A stretch of DNA of 64,000 nt, taken from the NCBI RefSeq assembly GCF_002863565.1, contig NZ_PGUW01000004.1:558001-622000 (forward strand), given 5' to 3'. This DNA comes from Bacillus sp. V5-8f (GTDB lineage Bacteria > Bacillota > Bacilli > Bacillales > DSM-1321). Shown in pieces: positions 13,429 to 63,052 of this stretch (position 1 is its first letter; every line of letters starts with the position of its first letter). The notes beneath the pieces are model-generated. The model had not been told where the DNA came from, made no database searches, and saw only the letters and a list, made by a program, of their open reading frames with translations. A program made the position numbers and the translations under genes.

Positions 13429-16400
13429 ATGACATACAATCAAATACCAAAAGCGCAAGGTCTCTACCGTCCTGAATTCGAGCATGATGCATGTGGAATC
13501 GGATTGTACGCACATATAAAAGGAAACGCAACGCATGAAATCGTAAAAAAAGGACTGCAGATGCTTTGCCAATTAGACCACCGGGGCGGACAGGGAAGCG
13601 ACCCGCTAACAGGGGATGGCGCAGGATTAATGGTTCAAATCCCGGATCAATTTTTCCGCGAATCTTGTCCGGAAATTAACTTGCCTAAAAAGGGTCGATA
13701 TGGAGTAGGGATGCTCTTCTTTACGAAAAATGAGGCTGAGCAATCTTCGATTGAAGATAGTATTAATCATTATATAGAACAAGAAGGCCAGGTTCTTCTT
13801 GGGTGGAGAACTGTACCTGTTGATGTCAGAAAAATTGGAACAGTAGGAAAAGAGACAGCGCCAGTGGTCCGGCAGGTCTTTATCGGGGCTAATGACAACA
13901 TATCTGATGACTTAGCCTTTGAAAGAAAACTATATGTAATCAGGAAGCAGGCAGAACATAAAGCTGCTGTGCAAGGAAATAGGTTCTATTTTGCAAGCTT
14001 GTCAAGCAGAACAATTGTTTATAAAGGGTTATTAACTCCTGATCAGGTAGATGAATTCTATTTGGATCTTCAAAGCGAAGCCTTTAAGTCCGCTTTTGCA
14101 TTAGTACATTCACGTTTTAGTACGAACACGTTCCCTAGCTGGGAAAGGGCGCATCCAAACCGCTATCTAATCCACAATGGAGAAATCAATACACTCAGGG
14201 GAAATATAAACTGGATGCACGCACGCGAAAAGCAATTCATTTCTAATGCTTTTGGGGAAGACATAAACAAAGTAGCTCCAATTTTGGACATTGATGGAAG
14301 CGATTCGTCCATTTTGGATAATGCACTTGAATTCTTTGTGCTGGCTGGGAGAAAGCCTGCCCATGTCGCCATGATGATGATTCCTGAACCTTGGACTGAG
14401 AACCCTCACATTTCAAAGGAAAAGAGGGCGTTCTATGAGTACCACAGTACGTTGATGGAGCCATGGGATGGACCGACTGCCATTTCGTTCACCGATGGAA
14501 AACAAATCGGTGCCATTCTGGACCGCAACGGACTGCGTCCTGCTCGTTACTATGTAACAAAGGATGATTATATTATTTTTTCTTCGGAGGTCGGTGTAAT
14601 TGAAGTTGAACCGGAGAATGTTTTATATAAAGAAAGATTAAGCCCAGGGAAAATGCTATTGATCGATTTGGAACAAGGACGGATTATCTCAGATGAGGAA
14701 ATCAAGTCAGAGATGGCTGCTGCTTATCCTTATCAGCAATGGCTTGATGAACAGCTTGTTGTATTGCCTGATGATGGAGACGCGACGGAAGAAAATCCGA
14801 AGTCTGAGCTTTTCGTTCTCCAAAAAGCATTTGGTTATACGTATGAAGATGTTCATAAATATCTAATCCCTGTCGTAACAGAGGGAAAGGACCCGTTAGG
14901 ATCCATGGGAAATGACACACCTCTTGCGGTATTGTCCGATCGCCCGCAATCATTGTTCAATTATTTCAAGCAAACATTTGCCCAGGTAACGAATCCGCCT
15001 ATTGATGCCATTCGTGAACAAATCGTAACTTCGACTGTTAGTTATTTAGGGGCAGAAGGAAATCTTCTTCATCCGAATGAAGGAAATTGCCGTCGAATCC
15101 AGCTTGAAACGCCAATATTGACAAATGGCCAACTCGCAAAATTGAAAGCGAATGAACTAGAAGGGTTTTCTAGCAAAACCATTCATACTTTATTTACCGG
15201 TGACCTGGAAAGCGGACTCTCACGGATTTTTGCTGAAGCCGAAAAAGCTATTGCTGACGGAGCAAGCTTGCTGATTTTAACAGACCGTAATATCAATAGG
15301 GATGAAGCGGCGATGCCTATTTTGCTTGCTGCAAGTGCATTACATCAGCATTTGATCCGCCAGGGAAGCCGTACAAAGATAAGTCTTGTAGTTGAATCTG
15401 GTGAAACACGGGAAGTGCACCATTTTGCAGCCTTAATTGGTTATGGCGTGGATGCTGTTAATCCGTATTTAGCTTATGAAACTTATAAGCGGGCTATTTT
15501 GGACGGCCATTTGGCTATTAGTTATGAAGAAGCGGTTGCAAAGTACGTAAAAGGTATGACAGAAGGCGTTATTAAAGTAATGTCTAAAATGGGAATTTCA
15601 ACTGTACAAAGCTATCGCGGTGCTCAAATTTTTGAAGCTGTTGGTATTAGTGCAAATGTTATTGAAAAGTATTTCAGCGGTACTCCTTCGCAGATTGACG
15701 GAATTCAACTTGACACGATCGCTAAGGAAGCCTTGATGCGCCATGAGGCAGCATATGGTGAATCAATTGATGATACGCTAGAGGCTGGCAGTGATTTTCA
15801 ATGGAGAAAAACAGGGGAGCATCATGCATTTAACCCTAAGACCATCCATACACTTCAATGGGCGACCCGCAAAGGTGATTATGGATTATATAAACAATAT
15901 TCCGAAATGGCGAACCAAGAAAGAATCGGATTTTTGCGTAATTTATTCTCCTTCGATATGACTCGCAAGCCTGTATCAATCGATGAAGTAGAGAGCGTAG
16001 ATTCAATTGTACGCCGTTTTAAATCCGGCGCGATGTCCTTCGGATCGTTAAGCCAGGAAGCACACGAAACTTTGGCAATTGCTATGAACCGTCTAGGCGC
16101 TAAGAGCAACAGCGGTGAAGGCGGAGAGCATCCAGCCCGTTATACGCTTGACGAAAATGGAGACAACCGTAGAAGCGGTATCAAGCAGATAGCATCAGGA
16201 CGGTTCGGGGTAAAGAGCGATTATCTTGTAAATGCAGATGAACTGCAAATCAAGATGGCCCAAGGTGCTAAACCAGGTGAAGGCGGCCAGCTGCCAGGAA
16301 ACAAAGTGTATCCTTGGGTAGCTGAAGTTCGCGGATCAACACCGGGTGTTGGGCTAATTTCGCCTCCTCCGCATCATGATATTTATTCGATTGAGGATTT

Positions 16401-17985
16401 GGCGCAGTTGATTCATGATTTGAAAAATGCGAATCGTAATGCACGGATTAGTGTTAAGCTAGTTTCAAAAGCAGGTGTTGGAACCATTGCAGCAGGAGTT
16501 GCTAAAGGTGTGGCGGATGTAATTGTTATCAGTGGATATGATGGCGGAACAGGAGCTTCTCCTAAAACGAGCATAAAGCATACTGGTTTGCCGTGGGAGC
16601 TTGGGCTCGCTGAAGCACACCAAACTTTGATGATCAATGGACTGCGTGACCGTGTTGTTTTAGAAACTGACGGGAAGCTGATGACTGGAAGGGACGTAGT
16701 CATGGCTGCATTGCTCGGTGCAGAGGAATTTGGATTTGCGACAGCGCCGCTTGTTGTTTTGGGCTGCATCATGATGAGGGCATGCCATTTAGATACGTGC
16801 CCTGTAGGGGTTGCCACTCAAAATCCAGAGCTTCGTGCAAAATTCACTGGAACGGCCGACCATGTTGTGAACTATATGAGGTTCGTAGCACAGGAAGTCC
16901 GTGAGCTTATGGCAGAGTTAGGATTCAGAACGATTGAGGAAATGGTGGGCCGTACGGATGTCCTAGAGGTAAGCGATCGTGCAAAAGCGCATTGGAAAGC
17001 AAAGCACTTAGACTTAACTACTTTGTTGTTCCAGCCTGAGGGACCTCGTACTTATAAAACACCACAAAATCATAAAATCGACGAGTCCCTTGATATGAAG
17101 GAATTAATGCCGGCTGTGCAGCCAGCATTAGTGGAAGGAAAGCCAGTTGATGTTTCATTCCCTATCACAAATGTCAACCGAGTGGTTGGAACGATTGTTG
17201 GTAGTGAAATATCTAAGCGTTATGGGGAAGAAGGACTGCCGGAAGATACAATTACCCTTCGCTTTAACGGATCAGCGGGACAAAGCTTCGGTGCGTTTGT
17301 GCCTAAGGGTATGACTCTTCGTTTAACTGGCGATGTCAATGACTATATAGGAAAAGGCTTATCAGGCGGAAAGCTTATTGTGTCAGCATCGGAAGAATCC
17401 AAATTGGTAGCAGGCGAAAATGTTATCGCAGGTAACGTCGCATTTTACGGAGCGACAAGCGGTGAAGCATACATTAACGGTCGTGCAGGAGAACGTTTTG
17501 CTGTACGGAACAGTGGAGCAAGCTTGGTTGTTGAAGGAATTGGCGACCATGGCTGTGAATATATGACAGGCGGCCGCGTCGTGATTTTAGGAGACGTAGG
17601 CAAAAACTTTGGGGCAGGTATGTCAGGTGGAGTTGCTTACGTATTTGCTGAGAACCAGGATGAGTTTAAGCAACTATCCAATCAAGAAATGATTGAATTC
17701 GAAGCACTTAGCGATGTAAAGGAAATGAATGACGTTCGTGAAATGATCGTCAAGCATTATGAATATACAGACAGCGCTAAAGCTGCTTATGTGTTGGAAA
17801 ACTGGAAGGATCTTGTTAGTAAATTCGTAAAAGTCATTCCTAAAGACTACAAGCGAATGATGGAGCTAATAAAGGAACAACAGGAAGCAGGATTATCCGA
17901 GACAGCAGCTATCATGAGTGCTTTTCAGGAAAATGCTAACCAAGAGAAAAAAACAGCTGTAAAACAGCTTAATGCAGTAATGTAA
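13429..17985 (+). CDS. gltA: Glutamate synthase, large subunit
   Basis: 1518 residues. A 21-residue propeptide precedes the catalytic Cys22 (EHDACGIG), which hydrolyses glutamine once exposed. The amidotransferase domain runs to ~430, a central domain to ~780, then the FMN-binding synthase barrel (GEGGEHP, KPGEGGQLPG, GYDGGTGASP). The 3Fe-4S cysteines are Cys1113, Cys1119 and Cys1124. A GXGXG beta-helix fills ~1260-1480. With the small subunit it makes two glutamates from glutamine and 2-oxoglutarate with NADPH. The gene name follows B. subtilis use (gltA is gltB in enterics). Ribosome site GGGAGGAG is upstream. Confidence 0.97.
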   Translation: MTYNQIPKAQGLYRPEFEHDACGIGLYAHIKGNATHEIVKKGLQMLCQLDHRGGQGSDPLTGDGAGLMVQIPDQFFRESCPEINLPKKGRYGVGMLFFTKNEAEQSSIEDSINHYIEQEGQVLLGWRTVPVDVRKIGTVGKETAPVVRQVFIGANDNISDDLAFERKLYVIRKQAEHKAAVQGNRFYFASLSSRTIVYKGLLTPDQVDEFYLDLQSEAFKSAFALVHSRFSTNTFPSWERAHPNRYLIHNGEINTLRGNINWMHAREKQFISNAFGEDINKVAPILDIDGSDSSILDNALEFFVLAGRKPAHVAMMMIPEPWTENPHISKEKRAFYEYHSTLMEPWDGPTAISFTDGKQIGAILDRNGLRPARYYVTKDDYIIFSSEVGVIEVEPENVLYKERLSPGKMLLIDLEQGRIISDEEIKSEMAAAYPYQQWLDEQLVVLPDDGDATEENPKSELFVLQKAFGYTYEDVHKYLIPVVTEGKDPLGSMGNDTPLAVLSDRPQSLFNYFKQTFAQVTNPPIDAIREQIVTSTVSYLGAEGNLLHPNEGNCRRIQLETPILTNGQLAKLKANELEGFSSKTIHTLFTGDLESGLSRIFAEAEKAIADGASLLILTDRNINRDEAAMPILLAASALHQHLIRQGSRTKISLVVESGETREVHHFAALIGYGVDAVNPYLAYETYKRAILDGHLAISYEEAVAKYVKGMTEGVIKVMSKMGISTVQSYRGAQIFEAVGISANVIEKYFSGTPSQIDGIQLDTIAKEALMRHEAAYGESIDDTLEAGSDFQWRKTGEHHAFNPKTIHTLQWATRKGDYGLYKQYSEMANQERIGFLRNLFSFDMTRKPVSIDEVESVDSIVRRFKSGAMSFGSLSQEAHETLAIAMNRLGAKSNSGEGGEHPARYTLDENGDNRRSGIKQIASGRFGVKSDYLVNADELQIKMAQGAKPGEGGQLPGNKVYPWVAEVRGSTPGVGLISPPPHHDIYSIEDLAQLIHDLKNANRNARISVKLVSKAGVGTIAAGVAKGVADVIVISGYDGGTGASPKTSIKHTGLPWELGLAEAHQTLMINGLRDRVVLETDGKLMTGRDVVMAALLGAEEFGFATAPLVVLGCIMMRACHLDTCPVGVATQNPELRAKFTGTADHVVNYMRFVAQEVRELMAELGFRTIEEMVGRTDVLEVSDRAKAHWKAKHLDLTTLLFQPEGPRTYKTPQNHKIDESLDMKELMPAVQPALVEGKPVDVSFPITNVNRVVGTIVGSEISKRYGEEGLPEDTITLRFNGSAGQSFGAFVPKGMTLRLTGDVNDYIGKGLSGGKLIVSASEESKLVAGENVIAGNVAFYGATSGEAYINGRAGERFAVRNSGASLVVEGIGDHGCEYMTGGRVVILGDVGKNFGAGMSGGVAYVFAENQDEFKQLSNQEMIEFEALSDVKEMNDVREMIVKHYEYTDSAKAAYVLENWKDLVSKFVKVIPKDYKRMMELIKEQQEAGLSETAAIMSAFQENANQEKKTAVKQLNAVM

Positions 17986-18004
17986 TTAGGAAGGAGAGAA
18001 GGAA

Positions 18005-19498
18005 ATGGGAAAAGCAACAGGATTTTTGGAATATGAGCGTGAGAAGGCAAAAGAACGCAGTCCACTCACGCGCCTAAACGACTGGAAAGAATATTCAACT
18101 CCCTTCTCCGATGAAAAGTTAAGCCGTCAAGGAGCAAGATGTATGGATTGCGGCACTCCTTTTTGCCATATGGGCATGGAAGTTCAGGGCACCACAACTG
18201 GGTGCCCGATCCACAACCTGATTCCGGAGTGGAATGATCTGGTCTATCGTGGCAAATGGAAAGAAGCATTGGATCGTTTGCTTAAGACAAATAATTTCCC
18301 GGAATTCACAGGACGTGTTTGCCCGGCTCCGTGTGAAGGTTCTTGTACGCTTGCTATTTCCGATCCGGCAGTCGCAATCAAAAGCATTGAACGGACGATA
18401 ATCGATAAAGGTTTTGAAAATGGCTGGATCAAGCCACGCATTCCAGCCAAACGCACTGGAAAGAAAATCGCTATCATTGGTTCCGGCCCGGCTGGATTGG
18501 CTAGTGCGGACCAGCTGAATCAGGCAGGTCATACTGTGACAGTTTTTGAACGTGCAGACCGCCCAGGCGGACTATTGATGTATGGAATTCCAAACATGAA
18601 GCTGGAAAAAGGAATTGTTGAACGTCGTATCAAGCTGTTAAGCCAGGAAGGCATCGATTTTGTCACGAACACAGAGGTAGGCAAAGATATTACAGCTGAA
18701 GAGCTTAAACATCAGTTTGATGCCGTCATTTTATGTACGGGAGCACAAAAACAGCGTAACCTAGATATTGATGGGCGTGAAGCGAAGGGCATCCATTTTG
18801 CTATGGATTACTTGACTTCAACAACCAAGAGCCTTTTGGATTCAAACTTCGAAGATGGCCAGTTTATTGATGTGGAAGGTCAGGATGTGATTGTAATCGG
18901 AGGCGGTGATACAGGTGCTGACTGTGTTGCTACTGCGTTGCGCCAAAAATGCCGCAGTGTTGTACAATTTGGTAAGCACCCACTGCTCCCGGCAACACGG
19001 ACTCCTGAGAATATGTGGCCAGCTTATCCAAACGTATTTACACTTGATTATGCATATGAGGAAGCTGAAGCTAAGTTTGGTAATGATCCAAGGCAATATT
19101 CTATTCAAACGAAGAAAATTGTTAATGATGAAAATGGCCATGTAAAAGAATTGCATACCATTCAGATGGAAAAGATCCAGCATGAAAACGGCCAGTACAT
19201 CTTTAAAGAAATTCCAGGAACAGAAAAAGTATGGCCGGCACAGCATGTCTTTATCGCTATAGGGTTTGAGGGTACCGAACAGCCGCTGTTACAGCAATTC
19301 GGCGTGAAAGCAACCAATCAAAAAGTTGATGCCGTTTATGGTGATTTCTCTACCAATGTAGAAGGCGTTTTTGCTGCTGGAGACGCAAGAAGAGGCCAGA
19401 GCCTAATCGTTTGGGCAATCAATGAAGGCCGTGAAGTAGCTCGTGAAGTAGACCGTTATTTGATGGGAAGCACAGTTCTTCCGTCATACAATATATAA
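18005..19498 (+). CDS. gltB: Glutamate synthase, small subunit
   Basis: 497 residues. The N-terminal cysteine clusters hold two 4Fe-4S centres: Cys46, Cys49, Cys54 and Cys67, then Cys106, Cys110 and Cys114. The FAD-binding GSGPAG follows at ~160 and the NADPH site GGGDTGAD at ~300; GDARRGQSL is the C-terminal FAD segment. It passes electrons from NADPH to the large subunit. It starts 19 bases after gltA behind GGAAGGAGAG, so the two are co-transcribed. Confidence 0.96.
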
Positions 19499-19510: not shown

Positions 19511-19566
19511 GGGGTCAGTCCCCCGGTGCGTTAATGCGTTAGAGCACCAGGGGACTGACCTTTTTT
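19511..19566 (+). repeat. Palindromic GGTCAGTCCCC repeat, also the gltAB terminator
   Basis: Long near-perfect inverted repeat (19512-19529 with 19544-19560) followed by six T. The same element occurs at 21701-21753 with matching loop sequence, so it is a dispersed palindromic repeat that has become the terminator. Confidence 0.75.
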
Positions 19567-19875: not shown

Positions 19876-21300
19876 TTAAGCAGAAAGCTTATTTCTTTCT
19901 TTTTCTAATTGTTTTGATGGTTTTACCCATTTATAAAACAGGATTCCGCTCGCTAGTAATATCATTCCAAATGTAAATGTTTTGATATCTGCAGTACCCG
20001 CATAGATGACCCAAACGGAATAAATGGTTGAAAGAGCGGCAATTACTCCATCGGTAATCCTGCTTCTTCCAGTTGTATAGGTTTCTCCAGTAAGAATCAA
20101 TTTTAATTGGAATACGGATGCAATAAAGTAAGGAACAAGGTAGGATAATGTCGCAACAACAATAATAAACTCAAAAGCCTTAGAAATTGTGTTAGAAATG
20201 GTTGAAAATATAAATAATTGACCAAGAATATTAGTGATTGTTAACGAAAAAGTAGGAATTCCTTTTTTGTTTACTTTTAAGAATGCTGGAAGGAATAATC
20301 CTTGTTTAGCCGCTTGATAAGGAACCTCAGAGCTAAGCATCACCCAACCTATTGTGGAGCCGAATAAGCTAATGAGGCCGATAGCCGCTAAAACTTTGCC
20401 GGCAACTGGGCCTAATACTGCCGAAATGGCGTCAATCAGTGGCTTATCAGAGGCTATAAGAACATGATGATTTAACATTCCCATTACGAGTGTGCTAATT
20501 CCGATATAAATGGCAAGAGCCATCAATAACCCTAACATCGTCGCACGCTTGACATCAACCTGTTTTTTTGCGCGAGAGGCAAACACAACAGCGGATTCCA
20601 CTCCGATAAATGCCCATAAAGTAGTAACTGCCGCGTTATTGATTTGGCCGAATAAACCGATAGTATGACCGGCCTCATCGACTCTTGGTGCGACAAATGG
20701 AAGCATATTCGCTTTTTGGAAAGCAAACAATCCAACCAAAATAAATAAGAAGAAGGCAATCACCTTTGCAGCTGTCGCAAGGAAGTTCAATTTTCCGGCA
20801 CTTTCTACACCTCTTAAGATGATGAAGTGAGTTCCCCATAAGAGGGTTGTGCAGACAGCAAATGTTAAGGCATTCCCTACTTTTAACGTAAAGCTCCCGA
20901 TTGTAAACAGTTCAGCCTGATTCGTTAAAGCCGGGAAGAAAGTAGACAAATATCCTGCAAATGTTGTTATGATTGCAATATTACCTGCTAAATTTCCAAT
21001 CCAATATCCCCATGAAGCCATGAATCCAGATAAAGTGGATGCATTGCTGCCAAGCTTAAATAGTTCCTTAGCGTAAATTTGGGGACCGCCTGTTAGCTTT
21101 GGCTTTCTTAATGCTAGGTTCCCAAACACAAGTGTTGTCATCAATACACCAAAGCCTGTTACCAACCAAGCAGAGAGCACACCTGCTGGACTGGCAGCTT
21201 CACTTAAAGACCTTGGCAGCATAAAAATTCCGGAACCGACCATATTTCCAACTACTAACGCAGTTAAAATCCATAAACCGAGTTTTTTGCTGTTATCCAT
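19876..21300 (-). CDS. yvsH: Lysine/basic amino-acid permease under lysine-riboswitch control
   Basis: 474 residues, an APC-superfamily transporter of the basic amino-acid/polyamine antiporter group with ~12 membrane helices. The first helix holds GNMVGSGIFMLP, the substrate-binding unwound segment, and TGGPQIYAKELF follows helix 2. A complete L-box lies upstream, as for B. subtilis yvsH, which supports lysine uptake. The start at 21300 follows AAAGGAGA; an upstream in-frame GTG-type extension to 21378 falls in the terminator region and is rejected. A near-identical-length paralog lies next to it at 21760. Confidence 0.88.
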   Translation of the reverse strand: MDNSKKLGLWILTALVVGNMVGSGIFMLPRSLSEAASPAGVLSAWLVTGFGVLMTTLVFGNLALRKPKLTGGPQIYAKELFKLGSNASTLSGFMASWGYWIGNLAGNIAIITTFAGYLSTFFPALTNQAELFTIGSFTLKVGNALTFAVCTTLLWGTHFIILRGVESAGKLNFLATAAKVIAFFLFILVGLFAFQKANMLPFVAPRVDEAGHTIGLFGQINNAAVTTLWAFIGVESAVVFASRAKKQVDVKRATMLGLLMALAIYIGISTLVMGMLNHHVLIASDKPLIDAISAVLGPVAGKVLAAIGLISLFGSTIGWVMLSSEVPYQAAKQGLFLPAFLKVNKKGIPTFSLTITNILGQLFIFSTISNTISKAFEFIIVVATLSYLVPYFIASVFQLKLILTGETYTTGRSRITDGVIAALSTIYSVWVIYAGTADIKTFTFGMILLASGILFYKWVKPSKQLEKERNKLSA

Positions 21301-21379
21301 ATATAAATGATCTCCTTTCTGGATATCCTCTTGCTGCTCAAAATAGGAGACTATCTTTTTTGTCAAAAATAAGCACAAA

Positions 21380-21408
21380 AAAACACACGCTTGAAACGGT
21401 GTGTGTAA
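21380..21408 (-). terminator. Riboswitch-controlled terminator
   Basis: Stem of alternating AC/GT (around 21383-21390 and 21399-21406) with a seven-T run on the minus strand, between the L-box and the permease. It should form when lysine is bound. Confidence 0.75.
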
Positions 21409-21454
21409 AAAACCGAATCAGACAAAAAGGGATAGTTCAACATAGCTTAACACT

Positions 21455-21625
21455 ATGACAGTCCTGCACCTATTCGGTAACAGTCCCAGCTGCTATAACC
21501 AGAGAATTACAGCGCTTCGGCGAATCGTCCTTTCGTTTGACCTCATCGAGTTCCCTGACTCTCCATCAAAGTACTATTACTCTTCGCGACCTCTACCTCA
21601 TCTTGAGCTGATGAGGGTTATATTC
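21455..21625 (-). promoter_or_regulatory. Lysine riboswitch (L-box)
   Basis: Read on the minus strand, the conserved L-box parts appear in order: AGATGAGGTAGAGGTCGCGA, an AGTAATAGTA segment, GAGAGTCAGGGAA, the CGCCGAAGCG stem, and the closing GCAGCTGGGACTGTT. B. subtilis lysC has the same series. Lysine binding favours the downstream terminator and shuts off the permease. Boundaries are approximate. Confidence 0.9.
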
Positions 21626-21638
21626 AATTACCTGTATA

Positions 21639-21667
21639 ATACTACGGTGAATTCATAGTAGAGTCAA
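21639..21667 (-). promoter_or_regulatory. Promoter of the L-box permease
   Basis: TTGACT (21662-21667) and TAGTAT (21639-21644) with a 17-base spacer, directly upstream of the riboswitch. Confidence 0.7.
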
Positions 21668-21700
21668 TGGTATATTTTAGTTTAGTAAAGTGATAAAGAA

Positions 21701-21753
21701 GGGGGGCAGTCCCCCAGTGCATTAACGCTTTACTGCACCGGGGGACTGACCCC
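21701..21753. repeat. Palindromic GGTCAGTCCCC repeat, second copy
   Basis: GGCAGTCCCCCAGTGC...GCACCGGGGGACTGACC, same arms and a very similar loop to 19511-19560. It ends the transcript of the permease at 21760-23184. Confidence 0.75.
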
Positions 21754-21759
21754 TAAATT

Positions 21760-23184
21760 TTAAGCGGAGAGGATTTCTTTTTCTGGAATTTTTGTTTTTT
21801 GAGGTTTAACCCATTTATAAAAAATAATTCCACTTACTAAGAGTGCCATGCCAAGAGCGAATGTTGTTAGATCCGCCGTGCCGGCGATAATGACCCATAC
21901 GGAATAAATCGTGGCCAGTGTTCCAATCATTCCATCTTTGATACGGCTTTTTTTGTCTGTATAGGTTTCTCCGGTTATAACAAGCTTCAGCTGGAATATT
22001 GAAGAAATCAAATAAGGGACAAGGTACGCTAGTGTTGCAATGACAATTGCAAAATTAAACGCTTTTGAAATCGTGTTGGATATCGTTGAAAAGATTAACA
22101 ACTGTCCAATTACATTTGTTATAATCAGGGCAAATACAGGAATTCCTTTTTTGTTCACCTTTTTGAATGCTGGTAGGAACAGGCCTTGCTTTGCCGCCTG
22201 ATAAGGAACCTCGGCACTCAGCATAATCCATCCCAGAATCGAGCCGAATAAGCTGATCAAAGCAAATCCTGCAAGTACTTTTCCTGCAACCGGCCCCATA
22301 ACCGTTGTAATAGCGTCGATTAATGGTTTATTGGAAGCAGCCAGCGCACTTGGGCTTAACATTCCCATAACAAGCGTGCTGATACCAATGTAGATGGCAA
22401 GTGCGATCATCAATCCAAGCATAGTAGCGCGTTTTACGTCCACTTGTTTTTTCGCGCGGGATCCGAACACAACGGCGGATTCCACTCCGACAAATGCCCA
22501 TAAAGTTGTTATGGCTGCATTATTGATTTGGCTGAATACACCTATAGCTTGTCCAGCTTCATCAAATCTCGGTGCAACAAATGGCATGATATTAGACTTT
22601 TGAAAAGTGAATAAACCAACCACAATAAATAAAAAGAATCCAATTACTTTGCCGGAAGTGGCAACAAAATTCAGCTTTCCTGCGCTATCCATACCTCGTA
22701 AGATAATAAAATGGGTGCCCCATAAAAGAAGTGTACAAACAACAAAGGTTAAGGCATTGCCGATTTTTAATGTGAAGCCGCCTATTGAGAACAGCTCAGC
22801 CTGATTTACTAAGATAGGGAAAAAGGTAGACAGATATCCGGCAAAAGTTGTGATCACCGCGATATTGCCGGCTGCATTTCCTACCCAATAGCCCCAAGAA
22901 GCCATGAAGCCTGACAGAGTGGATGCATTACTTCCAGACTTAAATAATTCTTTTGCGTAAATTTGCGGGCCGCCGGTCAAATTTGGCTTCCTAATGGCTA
23001 AGTTGCCAAACACAAAAGCGAGCATTAATACCCCAAAGCCTGTTATTAACCATGCCGATAGGACACCGGCAGGACTTGCAGCTTCACTTAAAGATCCAGG
23101 CAACATAAAAATGCCTGAACCAACCATATTTCCAATGACGAGGGCTGTTAAAATCCACAGTCCTAATTTTTTATTTGTTCCCAT
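21760..23184 (-). CDS. Basic amino-acid permease, tandem paralog without riboswitch
   Basis: 474 residues, the same length as its neighbour and alike over nearly all of it (same GNMVGSGIFMLP and TGGPQIYAKELF motifs, same helix pattern). It arose by tandem duplication. Its leader keeps the neighbour's promoter and the bases next to the ribosome site but not the L-box, so it should not respond to lysine in that way. It may be constitutive, or carry another basic amino acid such as ornithine or arginine. The ATG at 23184 is chosen, 9 bases after AGGGG; a TTG at 23190 is too close. Confidence 0.85.
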   Translation of the reverse strand: MGTNKKLGLWILTALVIGNMVGSGIFMLPGSLSEAASPAGVLSAWLITGFGVLMLAFVFGNLAIRKPNLTGGPQIYAKELFKSGSNASTLSGFMASWGYWVGNAAGNIAVITTFAGYLSTFFPILVNQAELFSIGGFTLKIGNALTFVVCTLLLWGTHFIILRGMDSAGKLNFVATSGKVIGFFLFIVVGLFTFQKSNIMPFVAPRFDEAGQAIGVFSQINNAAITTLWAFVGVESAVVFGSRAKKQVDVKRATMLGLMIALAIYIGISTLVMGMLSPSALAASNKPLIDAITTVMGPVAGKVLAGFALISLFGSILGWIMLSAEVPYQAAKQGLFLPAFKKVNKKGIPVFALIITNVIGQLLIFSTISNTISKAFNFAIVIATLAYLVPYLISSIFQLKLVITGETYTDKKSRIKDGMIGTLATIYSVWVIIAGTADLTTFALGMALLVSGIIFYKWVKPQKTKIPEKEILSA

Positions 23185-23225
23185 TTTCAAGTTCCCCTTT
23201 CTAGTGTGTTCTTCTCGATGTGAAA

Positions 23226-23317
23226 TAGGAGAGTTTATTTTAAAAAATTTTTAGTTGGCAGATGAGAATTTATTCAATCACCTGTAATAATATACGTGCA
23301 TTTTTATAACAAGTCAA
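23226..23317 (-). promoter_or_regulatory. Promoter and shortened leader of the second permease
   Basis: TTGACT (23312-23317), 17 bases, TATATT (23289-23294). Downstream, the bases reading GATGAGAATTTATTCAATCACCTG on the plus strand are near-copies of those at the 5' end of the other leader, and AAATAGGAGA is a copy of its 3' end; ~20 bases separate them here, against ~270 in the other copy. Confidence 0.7.
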
Positions 23318-23340
23318 TGGATTTTCTTGCATAAAGAATA

Positions 23341-23945
23341 GTAAGGTATATACTTTCAAAAGTGGAAAAACACAGATATGTTTGAATACTAAGTTAAGGA
23401 GATAAGAGTAGGGAAAACGAATTATTGTATTGCGTATCCGGCGGTAATATATTCTTATTGGCTATGTCTTTTTTGATTTAAATACGGCTAATTGAAATAG
23501 TTTTTTTATAAGGGACCTTACTTGGTGAAAAATAATACTGTATATTCTTCTTACCTTGTTAACTCATCAAGTGAATTCAAGCTTGATTATTCCTAATCTT
23601 AGAGTGAAATTATTGCAGAATATACGGTTCATGGATTATAAGAGCAGTGGAAGTCTATTGGTTACCTGAATAGATTAATCTCAAGCTTGTGCAAAATTGC
23701 TTTTCATAATGTTATGATGTTTGTTTGGTTTGTAGGGAGGTAGAAAAAATAGCGGCAGCTAACGAATATTCATAGGAGGAAAGGCGGTGATAGGGATGAT
23801 GAAGGGTATAATGATTACTTCTAAGGTCATTTTAAAAAAGTAACATCGTTTTAAATCCTACTGATAATGAAGTTAAGAGGATATGCGATACCTTCCAAAA
23901 ATAAAGGCATCGCCCGGTTTAAACTCATGATCTCTGTAGTTTCTA
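23341..23945. other. Gap with one very short possible peptide
   Basis: About 600 AT-rich bases. The only candidate is an 18-codon frame (GTG 23787 to TAA 23843) after AGGAGG at 23774-23779. I cannot tie it to any family. Nothing else seen. Confidence 0.4.
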
Positions 23946-49664: not shown

Positions 49665-49807
49665 ATCAAGCAGAAGCATTCACTCGATGGGCGATTGCGG
49701 TTAAAAAGTGGAATGTTTCAACCCTGAACGAATACATTAGTGGTGTGGGGATAGTGGTAGTTTTGCAATTTGGATGTCTACAGGATTAGTTGTCATTGTT
49801 TTTCCTT

Positions 49808-49920
49808 CCGTAAAGGGGAGTAGCGTCAGGGATATCCTGAAATAAAGTCGTCATTACATGGAATTTTCCATCGGCTTTATTGGCCTATTTGCTCTAGGCT
49901 CAGCGAGACCTTTGCCTTCA
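49808..49920 (+). promoter_or_regulatory. yybP-ykoY manganese riboswitch
   Basis: The leader has AAAGGGGAGTAGC, then GTCGTCATTACATG, ATCGGCTTTATTGGCC and GCGAGACCTTTGCC, the conserved parts of the Mn2+-sensing yybP-ykoY RNA. A terminator overlaps its 3' end. Mn binding should prevent the terminator and allow expression of the TerC gene. Confidence 0.92.
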
Positions 49921-62632: not shown

Positions 62633-62855
62633 GGAGGAAGCTTTAGCAATAAAGTTATTTCCAATATTACTATTATAGGTTTATAAAATGGGCTTGAGAA
62701 AATCAAAAATGGGTGTAACAATAAGAATAAAGAAAGAAATTTACGCAGAACCATACCTAATAAGAATTATCTTATAATCAATACGATTGCTAAACATAAG
62801 AGCAGTATTTCTCAAGGGTTCTCAGCACATCCTCAGAAGGAAGGGTGTGGTGCTG

Positions 62856-62939
62856 ATGACGGCCTTTGAAGCGTTGATGTTTGCATGTGCGTTTGCAAGC
62901 CTGATCGTGGCTGTTCTGTCATTTAACCAAAAAAAATAA
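62856..62939 (+). CDS. Type I toxin-like small hydrophobic peptide (TxpA/BsrG-like)
   Basis: 27 residues: MTAFEALMFA, a hydrophobic helix, then NQKK. TxpA, BsrG and related membrane toxins have the same order: M(S/T)xxEALM start, one helix, lysine end. AAGGAAGGG lies 10 bases upstream; two in-frame GTG codons (62847, 62850) are possible starts. Two hairpins follow. An antisense RNA would be expected from the other strand. Confidence 0.6.
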   Translation: MTAFEALMFACAFASLIVAVLSFNQKK

Positions 62940-62976
62940 TTCACCCGCAAGAGACGATGTGACAAGGGTGAATTAT
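62936..62976 (+). other. Hairpin at the stop codon of the toxin
   Basis: ATAATTCACCC (62936-62946) with GGGTGAATTAT (62966-62976). It includes the stop codon, as in other type I toxin mRNAs. Confidence 0.7.
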
Positions 62977-63020
62977 TCCTCATAATCGCTGGTCCCCTTG
63001 TGAAGGAACCTCATAATTTA

Positions 63021-63052
63021 GACCGTTGGTTGGCCACTGACGGTCCTTTTTT
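63021..63052 (+). terminator. Terminator of the toxin mRNA
   Basis: GACCGT (63021-63026) with ACGGTC (63040-63045), then TTTTTT. Confidence 0.75.

Follow-up and report, generated by a model that had tools for sequence, protein, structure and literature searches.

Lysine riboswitches (L-boxes) upstream of yvsH-type permeases are already known (Rodionov 2003, as cited in PMC8124236 and PMC5584792), and for the leader of BMMGA3_01150 in Bacillus methanolicus MGA3, whose product is reported as 51.64% identical to YvsH, the reporter output falls as lysine rises (PMC8124236). Across species, a figure legend in PMC5584792 presents lysine transporter genes that have the riboswitch in some species, while others keep the gene but lack the riboswitch. 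The locus described here lies in the window, namely the whole stretch of 64,000 nucleotides from Bacillus sp. V5-8f that was analysed, and it has in common with the yvsH-type L-boxes as cited there a YvsH-like permease, hereafter A, whose leader contains a full aptamer followed by a terminator; it differs in that an adjacent homologous permease, hereafter B, is without an aptamer, and in that orthologues are found in stages of decay. The likeness of A to the B. methanolicus system is drawn through strain PB1 and not through the MGA3 gene: the PB1 orthologue (L067/L074) is 79% identical to A, and its aptamer is by eye nearly the same as the one printed for MGA3 (PMC8124236). A patchy occurrence of the riboswitch before lysine transporter genes is likewise common to PMC5584792 and to our results, whereas the words 'loss', 'lost' and 'paralog' have 0 uses in the main text of that paper and we find intermediates as well as a pair within one genome. 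A narrow check of the literature, covering titles and the beginnings of abstracts, found no description of a decay series or of a mixed L-box pair. Presence and absence among species is thus known already, and it is the graded decay series that is the interesting part.

Two adjacent permeases and their leaders

Permeases A (19876..21300) and B (21760..23184) are encoded in tandem on the minus strand, B upstream and A downstream, with a promoter-like site before each. A is a YvsH-like amino-acid permease of the APC family located downstream of the L-box, and B is its paralogue with a leader without L-box. Both have 474 aa from ATG, and 375 of the 474 residues (79%) are identical without a gap, just as the first-pass annotation had described two permeases of 474 residues alike throughout. 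AA_permease_2 (PF13520) spans both proteins (151.3 and 169.4 bits against a gathering threshold of 27). The best NCBIfam model is TIGR00905, basic amino acid/polyamine antiporter, and since A and B stay below its cut-off (351.8 and 365.3 against 409.05 bits), we infer lysine as their substrate only from the riboswitch and from YvsH.

The leader of A bears the one Lysine aptamer that Rfam finds in the window (L-box, RF00168; 21425..21603, minus strand), which scores 108.2 bits against a gathering threshold of 30 with an E-value of 6.6e-28 and covers the model from 1 to 182, that is its full length. It retains 64 of 64 conserved columns, a column counting as conserved when it is the same in all, or in all but one, of 34 other permease-linked aptamers. 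Lysine riboswitches number three in the whole genome, and the other two presumably precede a putative LysP-type permease and an aspartokinase, as we name these genes from their sequences. Promoter A (21639..21667, minus strand) reads TTGACT, a 17-nt spacer and TAGTAT, and is recognised by consensus resemblance only, while the intrinsic terminator (21376..21406, minus strand) consists of a hairpin at 21383-21406 and a T run, and comes from a terminator scan of the leaders run without shuffled control. As an intact L-box is followed here by an intrinsic terminator, lysine binding should favour early termination, and by homology A should be lysine-repressible. RNAfold gave no clear switch model for leaders A and B, and no competing antiterminator could be made out in leader A. 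Elsewhere in the window, Rfam also matches a Manganese (yybP-ykoY) riboswitch at 49803-49901 (49.9 bits against 45) and BsrG (RF01412) at 62794-63042 (58.8 bits against 55), the latter of which we take to be an sRNA of toxin-antitoxin type.

The leader of B (23185..23317, minus strand) begins with a promoter TTGACT-17-TATATT (23317-23289), again called by consensus resemblance only, which is followed by some 100 nt that contain neither aptamer nor terminator. In fact, the 4 Rfam matches at E<=10 in 23150-23450 include no Lysine (RF00168), an aptamer profile made from 17 lysine aptamers has no match in the 700 nt upstream of B, and the terminator scan yields no terminator in this leader. A hidden aptamer in leader B is ruled out by Rfam at E<=10 and by the aptamer profile.

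The two leaders have several blocks in common. AGTCAA, which is TTGACT on the minus strand, is located at 21662-21667 and 23312-23317, GATGAG at 21610-21615 and 23261-23266, and AAATAGGAGA on the plus strand at 21341-21350 and 23223-23232; a CTCCTATTT block (21341..21349, minus strand), common to both leaders, is moreover complementary to the Shine-Dalgarno region of A. When aligned between A and B, the promoter-side block scores 69.5 (z 9.2), where the best of 2000 dinucleotide shuffles reaches 51.5, and the start-side block scores 45.5 (z 4.5), a narrow margin over the best of 2000 shuffles at 43.5. The first-pass annotation, which had assigned the L-box to one leader and not to the other and had taken their flanks as homologous, is borne out by the Rfam match in A with no Lysine match in B and by an alignment that 0 of the 2000 shuffles equals at either block, thinly at the second; the gaps it gave as about 270 and about 20 bases are right in substance, the distance from GATGAG to AAATAGGAGA being 259 bases in A, as against 28 in B. 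Because leader B has a homologous promoter region and neither aptamer nor terminator, B should be lysine-blind, and thus one copy is likely lysine-repressed and the other not.

The L-box across orthologous leaders

To see the pair in the context of its family, 77 orthologue leaders were classified, which are a sample, since the 397 genomes were drawn evenly from a larger order and 36 of 80 stretches were confirmed. Among them 37 have an L-box, 39 have none, and one (G023) has decayed past Rfam detection, while the aptamer profile puts 38 leaders above 5 bits. Left out of the 77 are L125 (G092), for which no start was found, and the partial copies at locus edges L004, L070 and L106; for L083 (G107) the contig ends after 300 nt upstream, which makes its label 'none' uncertain.

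Several leaders look as if caught in the middle of the loss. The aptamer of G002 scores 64.7 bits with 57 of 64 conserved columns kept and 7 changed, and in its sister G023, which matches P. saganii, the leader is 78% identical to that of G002 while its aptamer keeps 42 of 64 columns and has about 22 changed, a count somewhat too high because the 5' end of this aptamer is misregistered; Rfam finds no match to it at E<=10. For comparison, the median of the reference aptamers in a leave-one-out count is 0 columns changed (L058, whose aptamer passes the 700-nt limit, is not in the conserved-column count). Moreover, a terminator without aptamer is present in 4 of the 39 L-box-free leaders, namely those of G003 (which matches P. 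cavernae), L040 (P. deserti), L081 and L088, according to the scan without shuffles, and the four terminators are of the same kind at roughly the same place.

Some further leaders and genomes deserve mention. The L-box of L107 (G358), 265-103 nt upstream of the permease, has 12 of 67 columns changed and is a candidate for decay. In L131 and L103 (G029 and G010) the CTCATC...GACGA start of the L-box leader is by eye kept and then followed by an insert of unknown origin, and in G010 (L012) the permease gene has a group II intron on its downstream side. Neobacillus niacini AT2.8 has one permease with L-box (L056) and one without (L060), on different contigs and apart in the tree, and therefore the coexistence of L-box-bearing and L-box-free copies is not unique to the window.

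On the permease tree, for which 9 of the 12 distant outgroup proteins were omitted and in which G002 is labelled 'L-box' though partly decayed, the L-box states need 11 changes, at least 7 of them forced by well-supported branches, against a mean of about 27 for shuffled labels. If gain is forbidden, the best tree needs 15 losses, or 14 without L083. Rate models on the 77 leaders, with G023 counted as L-box, give a log-likelihood of -30.9 for a root with L-box and -32.5 for a root without, and -31.0 for loss only and -32.7 for gain only, so within the family they mildly favour an L-box root and loss. The family root has a posterior of 0.92 for an L-box, the ancestor shared with G002 one of 0.98 and the A-B ancestor one of 0.55. 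Further out, the aptamer scored in 0 of 12 distant homologues (about 52%), and when 3 outgroups are included, with the root at the outgroup node, an L-box-free root is preferred (-32.2 versus -46.9), with fitted losses about four times the gains. Given these outgroups and this root, a gain on the stem followed by losses fits as well, and the L-box may thus have been gained on the stem of the family. Within the family the direction of loss is drawn mainly from the mutated-aptamer and terminator-only leaders of relatives, and we infer that the L-box was lost repeatedly, through mutations in the aptamer in some lineages and through deletion in others. Where the first-pass annotation had left it open whether the element was removed or inserted, removal is hence the better supported, mainly by these remnant leaders and mildly by the rate models.

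The sister species, the palindromes and the origin of A

The nearest relative of the window's genome (G000) is G032, which matches Peribacillus glennii. Its gltB is 88% identical, where the next best genome has 81%, and the two are sisters at 100/100 in a gltB tree of 14 genomes. The order of the locus in G032 is gltB, gltD, a single permease and a kinase, and the flank common to both species in the window is 13429..19498 on the plus strand, whose genes we take to be gltB and gltD (glutamate synthase). The single permease of G032 is an orthologue of B (86%, paired at 100/99), and the aptamer profile finds no L-box in its leader. A B-type permease without L-box at the same locus means that the B lineage was riboswitch-free before the two species split. 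At fourfold sites the identity is 48.4% between B and G032 and 48.8% for gltB, and on account of this equality B most likely came down by vertical inheritance already without an L-box; the identity is 32.7% between A and G032 and 37.1% between A and B, and this last value, against 48% for B and G032, places the A-B split before the species split. Thus A is not a fresh duplicate of B but either a paralogue of older date or a copy that was acquired.

In G000, A and its leader are flanked by two 48-nt palindromes, the first (19513..19560) between gltD and permease A, the second (21704..21751), which is different in one end base, between leader A and permease B, while G032 has one between gltD and its permease. 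The homology of leader A to congeners stops at about 21698, beside the second palindrome. The copy in G032 is closest to the gltD-side copy, inverted, with 4 mismatches in 48, a closeness met by 1 of 120 pairs among 16 exact-pattern copies. The palindromes have the form GGTCAGTCCCC(C)-interior-(G)GGGGACTGACC and a length of 48 nt (50 in one copy), and their interiors vary strongly; the exact pattern, in which 11 bases at either end are fixed, has 28 copies in G000 and 21 in G032, and it occurs in 2 of 36 congeneric genomes, namely these two sister species, with 0 for a reversed control. In 48 copies the interiors show mostly two-letter variation per position, and for pairing inside the palindromes no position exceeds the maximum of its shuffles. 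As far as the sequences go, this layout fits an insertion of A as well as a deletion of A from G032.

As for the route of A, the permease (E<=1e-190) is present in 12 of the 36 congeneric genomes, with two copies only in G000, and comparison over 14-19.5 kb reveals 7 different types of neighbourhood in the 12 genomes, for which reason we call relocation of the gene common. The nearest relative of A is the permease of G003 (87% aa), which has a different locus, although the grouping is weak (81/55). At third positions the identity of A and G003 is 5.7 points above that of gltB, a greater positive excess than in any other of the 44 pairs, and their ratio of amino-acid divergence, 0.59, is the second lowest, which leans toward a transfer of A without proving it; as in other pairs permease and gltB differ by up to 11.5 points in the opposite direction, it gives no clear verdict for lateral transfer.

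With these data the possible histories can be weighed. In the first-pass annotation the L-box change came after a duplication that made the tandem pair; with the change taken as a removal, this means a tandem duplication in this lineage with an L-box on both copies and then a clean loss in B. The tandem layout, the homology of the leaders at both ends and the lack of a third copy in G000 at E<=1e-190 would suit such a history, but it is contradicted by the L-box-free B at the same place in G032 and by the A-B divergence at fourfold sites, and we hold it for hardly probable at all. The recent tandem duplication itself is ruled out by the synteny with G032 and by the silent-site identities, and the comparison of the locus in related genomes speaks against this part of the annotation, since G032 has B alone and without L-box. 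An old tandem pair, in place by the time of the common ancestor of G000 and G032 if not before, from which G032 lost A, perhaps by recombination between palindromes, deserves more weight and is still unlikely: a deletion between the two copies would also leave the one palindrome of G032 where G000 has two around A, but no second genome among the 36 congeners has two copies, and over the 14-19.5 kb compared the gene has different neighbours in the remaining 10 congeners that possess it, among them G003.

It is also conceivable that the ancestor of the A/B group had no L-box and that A regained it by recombination, as A is the only L-box row in a clade of 11 rows (99/91) and the posterior of 0.55 at the A-B ancestor is low. 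However, leader A is collinear with the leaders of its relatives, including the terminator and the GATAGT of the L-box-free G003, and the aptamers nearest to A by path in an aptamer tree are permease-linked (0.23-0.42), the lysC aptamer of its own genome being far away, so that a regain seems very improbable. The aptamer tree is itself of little use for placing the L-box of A, because 21 of its 37 inner branches are open; the lysP aptamer of the same genome falls inside the permease set, and by pairwise identity to the A aptamer (lysC 77%, lysP 80%, others 70-89%) the groups are not separated.

The explanation we prefer, with a probability of roughly 0.7, is that a lysine-repressible A stands beside a resident L-box-free B, that A is not a fresh duplicate, and that L-box loss is recurrent in the whole family. 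It is built on the sequence states, the synteny, the divergence and the tree, which are observed. A would be repressed by lysine through its intact L-box and intrinsic terminator. B would be the resident copy of the locus, with a homologous promoter, in a lineage from which L-box and terminator had both disappeared by the time it separated from G032, so that lysine should not attenuate B. The ligand response and the difference in expression are thus predicted. A would have separated from B before the G032 split and would now occupy the gap between gltD and B, between the two palindromes, and as to its route, lateral transfer or relocation may have brought it there together with its riboswitch, or else it may be the old tandem partner that G032 lost. 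The direction of change would be loss, and the pair would be one case of the recurrent loss of the L-box within the permease family.

A possible translational layer and the meaning of the pair

In leader A the terminator is followed by GATAGT-CTCC, in which GATAGT (21350..21355, minus strand) is complementary to the 3' strand of the aptamer helix P1 (ACTATC); the duplex of GATAGT with this strand has a z of -3.2. The CTCC region complements the Shine-Dalgarno region with a z of -2.9, compared with -0.4 in leader B. Of the 77 leaders, 7 contain GATAGT within their last 150 nt, each time 45-55 nt before the start, and it is also retained in the L-box-free leader of G003. A downstream complement to the P1 3' strand with z<=-3.0 is found in 9 of 38 leaders, among them A, the Ectobacillus-group and B. 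methanolicus, some of the complements being inside the terminator, and in many other leaders it is near chance. For pairing against the Shine-Dalgarno region, the mean z is -0.55 in the 37 L-box leaders and -0.10 in the 39 without, with z<=-2 in 8 of 77; with such means, a translational switch of this kind across the whole family is unsupported. GATAGT-CTCC could, judged from its complementarity, couple the closure of P1 to translation in the sub-lineage of A, and not family-wide.

A more far-reaching reading would see the L-box as a module that can be shed and was lost independently many times, with species at every stage (intact; mutated; aptamer gone and terminator kept; all gone), and with a lysine-repressible and a lysine-blind importer as a pair at one place in the genome of the window. 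Through GATAGT-CTCC the P1 3' strand would moreover compete with the Shine-Dalgarno region for adjacent bases, and the ancestral switch may in this sub-lineage act on translation too. We put it forward tentatively, at somewhat less than even odds.

To sum up, the loss of a riboswitch is usually deduced from patterns of presence and absence alone, while orthologous leaders with a common promoter region appear to show its steps. Such leaders make the decay of a ligand-sensing RNA, together with a possible turn of the leftover terminator into a fixed attenuator, testable with reporters. Moreover, the A/B pair allows two predicted forms of what is nearly the same transporter, one lysine-repressed and the other lysine-blind, to be compared within one genome and thus with an internal control.
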